Shown here: positions 7,421 through 47,782 of the stretch, in pieces
Layout of the letters: each line of letters starts with the position of its first letter
How positions within the stretch are numbered: position 1 is the stretch's first letter
Assembly (NCBI GenBank): GCA_947584375.1
Contig: CANPWL010000015.1
Span: 1-48,489, forward strand
DNA: 48,489 nt
Direction: 5' to 3'
Origin: an uncultured Clostridia bacterium
GTDB lineage: Bacteria; Bacillota; Clostridia; Oscillospirales; Ruminococcaceae
Translations under genes and position numbers: made by a program
The notes under the pieces: generated by a model
The model's input: only the letters and a program-made list of their open reading frames with translations
The model's database searches: none
What the model was told of the DNA's origin: nothing

Positions 7421-8461
7421 ATGATAGAGACAAATGACTTTGACCTTGAAAACAGAATAGTTGCCCCCGAGGTCATAAAGGCAGATACAACTGATGATGT
7501 TGATTTGAATTTAAGACCGAAAACGCTTGACGAGTATATAGGTCAGGAAAAGGCAAAGGAAAACTTAAAGATATATATTGAGGCGGCTAAAAAGCGCGGA
7601 GATACTTTAGATCATGTGCTTTTATACGGTCCTCCGGGGCTGGGAAAAACAACTCTCTCCGGGATAATCGCACACGAAATGGGAGTTAATTTCAGAGTTA
7701 CCTCAGGACCTGCCATTGAAAAGCCTGGTGATTTGGCAGCACTTCTGACTAATCTTCAGGAGGGTGATGTTCTTTTTATTGATGAAATTCACCGTCTTTC
7801 CAGAGCAATTGAGGAGGTTTTGTATCCTGCATTAGAAGATTATGCTCTTGATATAATTATCGGCAAGGGACCGAGTGCAAGAAGTATAAGACTTGATTTG
7901 AATAAATTTACACTGGTCGGTGCAACGACAAGGGCAGGACAGCTTACGTCTCCTCTTCGTGATAGATTTGGCGTTATTCAAAGGCTTGAATTATATTCAA
8001 AGGATGAGCTTTGCGATATTATAATGCGTTCGTCGGTTATTCTGGGAGTTGCCTGTGACAAGGATGGTGCATATGAGCTTGCAAGCCGATCAAGAGGTAC
8101 TCCTAGAATTGCAAACAGATTTCTAAAGCGAGTTCGTGATTATGCTGACGTAATGGGTAACGGAAAGGTCACAAAGGAAATAGTAAAAATCGCTCTTGAC
8201 AGAATGGAAGTAGACGATCTTGGGCTTGACGGTCTTGACAGGCGTTTGTTAACTATGATGATTAAAGGCTATAACGGAGGTCCTGTGGGTCTTGAAACCT
8301 TAGCTTCCGCCATCGGAGAAGAAGCAGTCACTATCGAGGACGTCTGTGAGCCTTATTTGATGCAGCTTGGATTTATATCCAGAACTCCTAGAGGAAGATG
8401 TGCAACAGACCTTGCATATAAGCATCTTGGATTGCTTAAGGACGGTCAGACAACATTGTAA
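7421..8461 (+). CDS. ruvB: Holliday junction branch migration ATPase RuvB
   Basis: AAA+ motor that drives branch migration with RuvA. The protein has 346 residues. Walker [10 protein letters not shown] is at 70-78, Walker B with DEIHR at 121-125, sensor-1 GATTRAG follows, and the C-terminal winged helix ends in [23 protein letters not shown] precedes the ATG. It is detached from ruvC-ruvA (320-1407) and lies between ecfA2 and ecfT, with gaps of 27 and 63 bases. It is therefore probably transcribed with transporter genes rather than with its partners. Confidence 0.97.
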
Positions 8462-19740: not shown

Positions 19741-19779
19741 AAGGAGGTATGCTCTTAAAGGAGCATTGATATAAATATG
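19741..19779 (+). promoter_or_regulatory. Shine-Dalgarno with intervening hairpin (site A)
   Basis: AAGGAGG (19741-19747), then a hairpin ATGCTC (19749-19754), loop TTAAAG, GAGCAT (19761-19766), then 10 A/T-rich bases and the ATG at 19777. Without the hairpin the gap to the start is 29 bases. With the hairpin excised it is about 11. A second AAAGGAG inside the hairpin is 13 bases from the ATG and is a competing explanation. A near-copy precedes atpF at 47237-47275. Confidence 0.6.
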
Positions 19780-20916
19780 ATATATTTTGATAATTCTGCT
19801 ACAACCTTTCCTAAGCCTAAATCTGTATTCGACAGAGCTGATTATGCCGCAAGATATTTAGGCGGAAATCCCGGAAGAAGCGGACATAAAATGTCTGTCA
19901 GAGTGGCAGACGAGGTTTATAAGGTAAGAGAAAAAATAGCCGGATTTTTTAATGCTAAGCCTGAAAATGTTGTTTTTACGCTTAACTGTACTCATGCAGT
20001 TAATTTTGCAATGAAGGGAATTATGCAAAACGGCGGACATATAATCATATCTTCTCTTGAGCACAACGCTGTATCACGTCCTGCTTTTGCACTTATGAGT
20101 TCTCAAAGAAATATAAGTGTTTCTGTTGCAAAAGTTTCAGAATCAAGAGAAAAGACAATTTCAAATTTTAGATCGCTTATAAGACAAGATACAAAATGTG
20201 TTTGTATGATGGCGGCTTCCAATGTAACAGGAGAAATTCTTCCGTTTAATGAAATAGCTCGAATTTGTAAAAAAAGAGGAATATGCTTTATTCTTGACGC
20301 AGCTCAGGCAGCAGGTATTATCGATATAAAGCTTGGTGATGGAATCAATTTCATATGCTGTGCTGGTCATAAAGGTCTTTACGGTCTTTCAGGAACGGGC
20401 GTACTTATCTCGGACGGAAAGTATTCACTAAATACGATCATTGAAGGAGGAACCGGAGCAACTTCACTTGAACTTAAACAAACGGATTTTCTTCCTGAAC
20501 AGTTGGAAAGCGGAACGATAAATGTTCCCGGAATTATTTCACTGGGAGCAGGAATAGATTTTATCAGAAAAATAGGGATAGATAAGATAAAAAGAAAAGA
20601 GGATATGCTTTGTGATATGTTTGTATCTCAGGTTGAACGATTAGACAACTTTACAGTTATAAGAGATAATAGAAAAGAGTATGCTCCGCTTGTTTCTTTC
20701 AGTTATAAGAAAGCAAATTCGTTTGAGGTTACCGATTATTTAAGCAAGCGCGGATTTGCACTTAGAGGGGGATACCATTGTTCAGCGCTGGCTCATACAA
20801 CGCTTGGAACAAAGGAAGATGGACTTATAAGATTTTCGCCTTCGGTATTTAATAACCAATCAGAAGTAAGAAAATTAATAACAGAGCTAAAAAAAGTAAA
20901 TAATATTGGTATTTAG
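19777..20916 (+). CDS. Cysteine desulfurase-like aminotransferase class V (EF2568 family)
   Basis: A 379-residue PLP enzyme of fold type I. The family start MIYFDNSATTFPKP is clear. K199 in CAGHKGLYG should carry PLP, and C335 in GYHCSALAH is the catalytic Cys that would form the persulfide. It matches the EF2568-type cysteine desulfurase family rather than IscS or SufS. Together with the DUF3343 gene just upstream this suggests a sulfur or selenium mobilisation pair. Its ribosome binding site is separated from the ATG by a hairpin (19741-19779). Confidence 0.86.
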   Translation: MIYFDNSATTFPKPKSVFDRADYAARYLGGNPGRSGHKMSVRVADEVYKVREKIAGFFNAKPENVVFTLNCTHAVNFAMKGIMQNGGHIIISSLEHNAVSRPAFALMSSQRNISVSVAKVSESREKTISNFRSLIRQDTKCVCMMAASNVTGEILPFNEIARICKKRGICFILDAAQAAGIIDIKLGDGINFICCAGHKGLYGLSGTGVLISDGKYSLNTIIEGGTGATSLELKQTDFLPEQLESGTINVPGIISLGAGIDFIRKIGIDKIKRKEDMLCDMFVSQVERLDNFTVIRDNRKEYAPLVSFSYKKANSFEVTDYLSKRGFALRGGYHCSALAHTTLGTKEDGLIRFSPSVFNNQSEVRKLITELKKVNNIGI

Positions 20917-47236: not shown

Positions 47237-47275
47237 AGGAGGGTATGCTCTTAATCGGGCATAGTAATAAAAATG
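47237..47275 (+). promoter_or_regulatory. Shine-Dalgarno with intervening hairpin (site B)
   Basis: AGGAGGG (47237-47243), hairpin TATGCTC (47244-47250), loop TTAATC, GGGCATA (47257-47263), then 9 A/T-rich bases and the ATG at 47273. The hairpin folds away 20 bases, giving normal spacing. No other ribosome binding site is present. It is a near-copy of the site at 19741-19779. Confidence 0.72.
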
Positions 47276-47782
47276 ATTTATGCCAGAGTAACTGATTTTT
47301 TCTCAATTGATTTGGGAACCATTATCCCTACATTGCTGAATACTTTAATTATGTTTTTGGTATTGAAGCACTTTTTCTTCAAGCCTGTCAATGCGATCTT
47401 GGACAAAAGAAAAGCTGAAGTTCAGAAAACGTATGACGATGCTGATAAGGCTAACCGGGCAGCAGAAGAATATAAAGCCGAGTATACTCAAAAGCTTTCG
47501 GGCGCTAAAGAGGAATCGGCAAAAATCATAGATATAGCAACCAAGAGGGCAAATTCCCGCTCTGATGAAATCATCACTGAGGCAAAGGCGGAGGCAAAGC
47601 ATATCGTTGCCAATGCTCACAGCGAGATTGAAAAGGAAAAGAAAATTGCCGTTAATGAGATCAAGGACGAAATCACAGGAATGGTATTTGAAGTTGCGGG
47701 TAAGGTTGTAAATAAGGAGCTTAATACCAACGATAATGAAAAGCTTATTGAAGAGTTTATTGAAAATGTAGGTGAACTGTAA
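47273..47782 (+). CDS. atpF: ATP synthase F0 subunit b
   Basis: Peripheral stalk subunit. The 169-residue protein has one N-terminal membrane helix at about residues 16-33 (IIPTLLNTLIMFLVLKHFFF) followed by FKPVNAILDKRK. A long charged coiled coil rich in Ala, Glu and Lys runs from about 40 to 140. It binds delta at its C-terminus. The start is fixed by frame, with an SD-hairpin arrangement upstream. Its TAA overlaps the atpH ATG by one base. Confidence 0.95.
   Translation: MIYARVTDFFSIDLGTIIPTLLNTLIMFLVLKHFFFKPVNAILDKRKAEVQKTYDDADKANRAAEEYKAEYTQKLSGAKEESAKIIDIATKRANSRSDEIITEAKAEAKHIVANAHSEIEKEKKIAVNEIKDEITGMVFEVAGKVVNKELNTNDNEKLIEEFIENVGEL

Follow-up and report, generated by a model that had tools for sequence, protein, structure and literature searches.

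A hairpin between the Shine-Dalgarno sequence and the start codon of many unrelated genes in one uncultured clade of Clostridia: a probable split ribosome-binding site

In the window (the whole 48,489-nucleotide stretch of DNA analysed, from the uncultured Clostridia genome G000) and in close relatives of its genome, a perfect Shine-Dalgarno (SD) sequence lies far upstream of the start codon and a short hairpin stands between the two. This architecture occurs more often than in shuffled sequences, is concentrated in one clade, and is conserved with compensatory changes in the hairpin arms. We consider it probable, though well short of certain, that the element is a split ribosome-binding site of the kind described for phage T4 genes 25 and 38, multiplied here over unrelated genes. 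Specifically, the 30S subunit would pair with the perfect AGGAGG, from which the start, about 29 nt away, would be too distant for initiation; the short hairpin directly after the SD would stay folded and cut this distance to roughly 12 nt (range 5-16 in 33 elements), so that the ribosome could use the ATG. On the ribosome, the folded hairpin would thus help or tune initiation at the predicted start. The architecture would have multiplied in one clade of uncultured Clostridia, where selection on pairing would keep it.

The two elements from which the analysis started, site A and site B, each consist of a perfect SD, a 7-bp hairpin, an A/T-rich tail and a start codon, in that order (Table 1), with a gap of 1 nt between SD and hairpin at both; the site B stem has six Watson-Crick pairs and one G-U pair. 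The first-pass annotation had described a near-identical element before two unrelated genes, with 28 bases from the hairpin ATG to the start ATG in both cases and no inner SD at site B, and the sequence agrees on each point, only GGGC being present within site B. Scanning the window with a pattern allowing up to 3 mismatches gave 3 matches against 0.53 expected, the third at 7835. Folded as isolated 40-mers, site B reaches -8.8 kcal/mol (z = -3.34) and site A -7.8 kcal/mol (z = -2.25). With 131 nt of context, neither site differs notably from shuffles (z = -0.30 for site B, z = +1.48 for site A), and the minimum-energy fold favours other pairings at both sites. The two sites alone are therefore unconvincing, because their fold in context is no better than that of shuffles. 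As a separate observation, in G000 alone the 3' arm of site B has a second possible partner, TATGCC at the beginning of the atpF coding region (window 47257-47284), where the nine other carriers defined below have TACGC.

Table 1. Positions of the features of both sites and of related loci in three non-carrier genomes
Feature	Position	Strand	Basis
Site B SD, AGGAGG	47237..47242	+	sequence; 30 nt 5' of atpF start; GGAGG in 10/10 carrier orthologues
Site B hairpin, TATGCTC, loop TTAATC, GGGCATA	47244..47263	+	sequence, folding, orthologues
Site B arms	TATGCTC 47244-47250; GGGCATA 47257-47263	+	sequence
Site B A/T-rich tail, GTAATAAAA, 9 nt, hairpin to start	47264..47272	+	sequence
atpF, F0F1 ATP synthase subunit B; ATG at 47273	47273..47782	+	TIGR01144 100.3 bits, cut-off 65.5
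Site A SD, AGGAGG	19742..19747	+	sequence; GGAGG in 10/10 carrier orthologues
Site A hairpin, ATGCTCT, loop TAAA, GGAGCAT	19749..19766	+	sequence, folding, orthologues
Site A arms	ATGCTCT 19749-19755; GGAGCAT 19760-19766	+	sequence
Site A A/T-rich tail, 10 nt	19767..19776	+	sequence
Site A gene, cysteine-desulfurase family protein; ATG at 19777	19777..20916	+	TIGR01977 372.7 bits, just below cut-off 377
MFEIKK-protein hairpin loci in non-carriers	L055:1501-1707; L056:1419-1625; L060:1501-1713		

The search for further copies that the annotation had proposed, and whose failure would have counted as a refutation, was productive. Within the own genome, the pattern with up to 3 mismatches hits 15 places, against 5 for a backwards control, and 5 of the 15 are new copies with the same anatomy before other genes. 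A covariance model built from four elements (R1) gives at least 48 matches at E<=10 when 150 of 450 candidates are scored, 3 of them antisense repeats of a listed element. Each of the best 30 matches has an SD-like sequence on one side and a start codon on the other, the hairpin falling wholly within the interval as a split site implies, and the starts that follow are ATG in 28 cases, TTG in one and GTG in one. Covariation in the model-made alignment of 50 elements (A6) is weak: 96.0 % of cells are paired against 95.3 % in shuffles, of which 26/500 reach 96.0 %, and two pairs are changed on both sides, which 7/500 shuffles equal. Since the letters of this alignment are nearly uniform and the alignment is itself fitted, we relied on orthologues instead. 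One own-genome copy (L030:1501-2796) precedes the large terminase subunit of a PBSX-type phage, apparently a prophage gene, with a GTG start. A second hairpin type, in which AAGGAG is followed by the arms CCTTTGC and GCAAAGG around a loop of any three bases, occupies the same position in G000 (contigs C1 and C2) and in G004 (contig C1; loci L074-L105); it precedes what we take from its first residues to be a SecA-like start, and others.

Across the genus, model R1 at E<=1 finds 23-38 matches in 10 of 15 genomes, hereafter the carriers, and 1-3 in the other five, compared with 0-5 in 16 genomes of other genera. A further model, R2, at E<=0.2 gives 15-35 matches in the same ten and 0, 0, 0, 0 and 1 in the five non-carriers, and the exact pattern AGGAGG-N1-3-TGCTC-N4-8-GAGCA has 110 matches in the carriers, 1 in the non-carriers and 0 when reversed. 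All of these models and patterns favour the GCTC type of hairpin. The AtpF protein of the window is 95-99 % identical to that of the nine other carriers and 60-62 % identical to that of the five non-carriers; the ten carriers therefore form a close clade.

This evidence comes from orthologues of atpF and of the site A gene, which were found by protein and hence independently of the hairpin. At atpF, all ten carriers (7 distinct elements) have GGAGG; their best-scoring stems measure 7-9 bp and contain 0 mismatches and 8 G-U pairs, and the two arms vary together (TATGCTC/GAGCATA, TTGCTCC/GGGGCAA, TTGTCCC/GGGGCAA and TTGTTCG/CGGGCAA). The pairing is thus kept in ten species despite changed arms, which argues for selection on pairing. 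At the site A gene, the same scoring gives a stem of at least 5 bp in 10/10 carriers, one of them (G012) with 1 mismatch in the chosen form; a stricter energy test retains the hairpin in 8/10, and the failures, G002 and G012, count against bridging. None of the five non-carriers has such a hairpin at either gene, and all five have an SD-like sequence near the start. In one orthologue tally, the hairpin is present at 135/164 carrier starts and 0/14 others, a count that includes a few internal ATGs and is biased because the queries were chosen for having a hairpin. The element stands at the orthologous place in all ten carriers at both loci followed, so these loci lend no support to the annotation's word "portable" in the sense of mobility. 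Its readings of the element as a hairpin bridge and as a translation-control module both fit the evidence of many unrelated genes in ten species, orthologous positions, compensatory arm changes and, as described next, a reading frame that varies.

The orthologues also bear on two alternatives. The first is that the hairpin is a near-neutral mutational product, in which short inverted SD duplications arise, the ribosome copes and no function is selected. The arms do look like direct or inverted copies of the SD, and two losses suggest deletion between direct repeats of GGAG: a presumably ruvC-like gene has the hairpin in G003, while its G004 counterpart resembles such a deletion, leaving 11 nt, and the G000 orthologue of a gene whose protein begins MEKDLLV lacks the hairpin present in its relatives but keeps SD and tail, with the SD 13 nt from the start, a natural near-deletion. 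That pairing at atpF survives in ten species although the arms have changed speaks against this alternative, and we regard it as very unlikely. The second is a conserved upstream open reading frame (uORF), or an N-terminal extension, beginning at the hairpin NTG. Although an ATG stands at the stem base in many copies, at atpF the triplet is ATG or TTG, its frame relative to the gene is 0, 1 or 2 in the nine orthologues measured (all carriers but G002), and GGAGG is only 1-2 nt from the NTG, too close for a usual SD, which makes this alternative extremely improbable. The annotation had likewise argued against a conserved uORF from the upstream ATG frame, said to stop after six codons at site A but not at site B. 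Its statement is right for six codons, but the site B frame also ends, after 16 codons. A regulatory uORF or leader peptide, for which a conserved start and frame would be expected, was rejected on the same frames.

To put a rate on the architecture, we counted genes with a far SD (GGAGG or AAGGAG, 18-44 nt away), a simple spacer hairpin of -4 kcal/mol or below and an ATG in unselected stretches, where genes are open reading frames of at least 80 codons called on metagenome assemblies and starts are likewise those of the calls. In 388 kb of G000, 16 of 326 genes qualify, whereas 100 shuffles of the spacers average 1.17 and never exceed 4; in G004 the count is 17 of 264 (shuffled mean 1.03, at most 4 in 100). 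Among distant genus members that are non-carriers, G005 has 0/213 (shuffled 0.30) and G001 and G010 together 2/198 (shuffled 0.44); in other genera, G026 has 1/185 and G616 2/257 (shuffled 0.94). Similarly, the spacers of far AGGAGG sequences match or exceed the best-folding 5 % of their own shuffles in 13/26 cases in G000 and 11/23 in G004, compared with 1/16 in the non-carrier G005. If the reading as a split site is true, about 5 to 6 % of the sampled genes of these two carriers would be involved. A start finder that seeks an SD only near the start would miss such elements.

The spacing is as a split site predicts. Ordinary SD-to-start distances peak at 6-8 nt (range searched 3-11 nt), whereas in 33 carrier elements the strong SD lies well beyond, at a raw mean of 28.6 nt; removing the hairpin leaves a workable mean of 11.7 nt (range 5-16), or 8-10 nt at atpF, to be compared with 11 and 5 nt in the two T4 genes. 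In these elements the gap is 2.0 nt, the tail averages 9.7 nt and the loop is mostly 3-6 nt. Spacing alone is no proof of bridging, because the raw distance varies no more (standard deviation 2.5) than the distance without the hairpin (2.6). In the context from -60 to +33, the SD of the 33 hairpin genes is just marginally freer than that of 101 ordinary genes (probability of being unpaired 0.49 vs 0.40) and the AUG is no freer (0.50 vs 0.53), which speaks against bridging but does not decide the matter.

Further features count against bridging. The core letters GCTC/GAGC are common to the elements beyond structural need, although detection favours them; an SD-like 4-mer lies in the loop or 3' arm of 22/33 elements; and the pyrimidine-richer arm comes first in 33/33. 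Among distinct GGAGG elements, a set partly chosen by motif, the purine-richer arm is second in 108/113. Pure bridging would take either arm orientation, so it leaves the 33/33 bias unexplained, and likewise the complementarity of the pyrimidine-rich 5' arm to the SD. We also considered that the orientation guards the SD from mispairing; in an in-silico arm swap the SD is unpaired with a probability of 0.93 vs 0.89 for the natural arms, and since swapped arms leave the SD no less free, these folds do not support SD protection as the reason for the orientation.

The arm order and the inner 4-mers speak for the main rival to bridging, an SD/anti-SD/SD switch or a standby site, which we judge unlikely. 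In this reading, the 5' arm would be an anti-SD with two alternative partners: pairing with the upstream SD would shut that SD, and pairing with the SD-like 3' arm would free it; the ribosome would dock on the outer SD and use the inner one once the hairpin melts. Moreover, transcripts cut after the 5' arm pair at least 3 SD bases in 30/33 elements, whereas 200 arm shuffles average 22.5 and reach 29 at most; the arms of the second hairpin type (CCTTTGC/GCAAAGG, 3' of AAGGAG) follow the same logic; and the SCIFF-maturase gene (L050-L052) has an inner GGAG 8 nt from the start, which is a usual distance. However, 11 of the 33 elements, site B included, lack an inner SD-like 4-mer, the inner G-run at atpF stands 10-14 nt before the start codon, farther off than the usual 6-8, and the full element is far more stable on average than the SD-closed form (-8.5 vs -2.4 kcal/mol). 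Judged from the 22 elements with such a 4-mer inside, an inner SD may be used at some of them. An extended form of the idea, in which SD, anti-SD and second SD stand in series in each leader throughout the lineage, spread as a portable module, so that initiation at tens of unrelated genes becomes a built-in, timed or factor-controlled switch, would have the nascent mRNA close the SD with the anti-SD arm until the SD-like 3' arm displaces the SD; we hold this to be unlikely.

The common core letters, together with multiplication in one clade, could alternatively mark a sequence-specific operator, with an RNA-binding protein reading GCTC-loop-GAGC between SD and start and governing a regulon, or, the element being a palindrome, with a DNA-binding dimer in its place. 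Against an operator, loop length varies from 3 to 11 nt and the downstream genes show no visible common pathway: 25 of 30 scanned downstream proteins match at least one NCBIfam family at E<=1e-8. Those above the curated cut-off are murG, plsX, farnesyl diphosphate synthase, ysxC, dxr, SCIFF maturase, pyrF, phage terminase, a purine-synthesis formyltransferase, uvrB, RNase J, guanylate kinase and atpF; TrkH-, GalU-, SleB- and SpoVAC-like proteins and others fall below it. The DNA version is further opposed by atpF, where the letters become TTGTCCC or TTGTTCG without loss of pairing and 8 of the pairs are G-U. We regard an operator of either sort as improbable.

Returning to the split ribosome-binding site, the mechanism has precedents. 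SD-sequestering hairpins, as in RNA thermometers and translational riboswitches, pair an anti-SD-like arm with an SD-like arm; the present elements resemble them in this pairing, yet unlike them carry a perfect SD outside the hairpin. A thermometer or riboswitch of that kind, with the functional SD inside the stem, was rejected on the outside position of the SD at both sites. T4 genes 25 and 38 are reported to have an enhancing hairpin between SD and AUG that shortens the distance from 27 to 11 nt and from 22 to 5 nt, respectively, the gene 25 form being kept only among close relatives (PMC3014915). The elements here likewise combine a far SD with an intervening hairpin, at a hairpin-removed distance near that of gene 25; in contrast to the single phage genes of T4, they number tens of copies per cellular genome before unrelated genes, and they have a common core and at least two hairpin types, with enhancement putative. 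The split site of E. coli thrS and the standby model are also similar, in that the hairpin there is said to be accommodated without unfolding, but thrS has large structured standby modules at one gene, compared with short SD-start hairpins repeated genome-wide (PMC3936740). For 58 E. coli genes without a usual site, another study reports no convincing fold-made site (PMC1805508). In the open-licence literature, judged from titles, abstract openings and passages of PMC3014915, PMC4631060, PMC3936740 and PMC1805508, a genome-wide class of this sort in a bacterium is unreported, and an Rfam search with sites A and B returned no family at gathering score. The annotation's suggestion that the module was not described before is accordingly too broad in mechanism, known in kind from the T4 genes (PMC3014915); the new part would, by our analysis, be the spread over many unrelated cellular genes. 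If this is true, an architecture known from single phage genes belongs to a cellular genome as a regular and evolving component. The ten species, with their natural hairpin variants and some orthologues that lack the hairpin, offer a ready means of testing how much structure between SD and start the ribosome tolerates.

Beyond the genus, matches thin out. At family level, 27 of 396 genomes have a match. Of these, 5 belong to the genus; the 22 from outside it contribute 30 matches, compared with 4 reversed, and three of the 11 places inspected among the 30 lie clearly before a gene start (L312, L314, L318). In the rest of the order, 10 of 393 other genomes have a match (11 matches vs 3 reversed), and none of the ten contexts inspected among these eleven is convincing as SD-hairpin-start; the order-wide covariance-model search used stricter filters, with 25 candidates scored per genome, and gave at least 1/295. 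A scan of named genomes yielded 45 stretches, 35 of which, counted by eye, lie directly 5' of a start. Of these, 29 come from metagenome-assembled genomes (MAGs) of "uncultured Clostridia" whose isolate names contain "Lapin", and the other six from MAGs of Ruminococcus and Lachnospiraceae. The genome of one such stretch (G313, L118) has 11 R2 matches at E<=0.5. These scans indicate a high density of the architecture in one clade and sporadic occurrence outside it. Reading the French "Lapin" as rabbit, which is our assumption, the record names suggest that the carrier clade is probably one of uncultured Clostridia of the rabbit gut. A single such hairpin occurs in each of three non-carriers (G013, G007 and G010), in every case ahead of the same protein of 58-60 aa, which begins MFEIKK (Table 1). 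Two stretches lie on viral contigs, and three Lachnospiraceae MAGs (L136, L155 and L162) have one common copy before a protein starting MLRIIMHGCNGRMGQ, presumably dapB-like.
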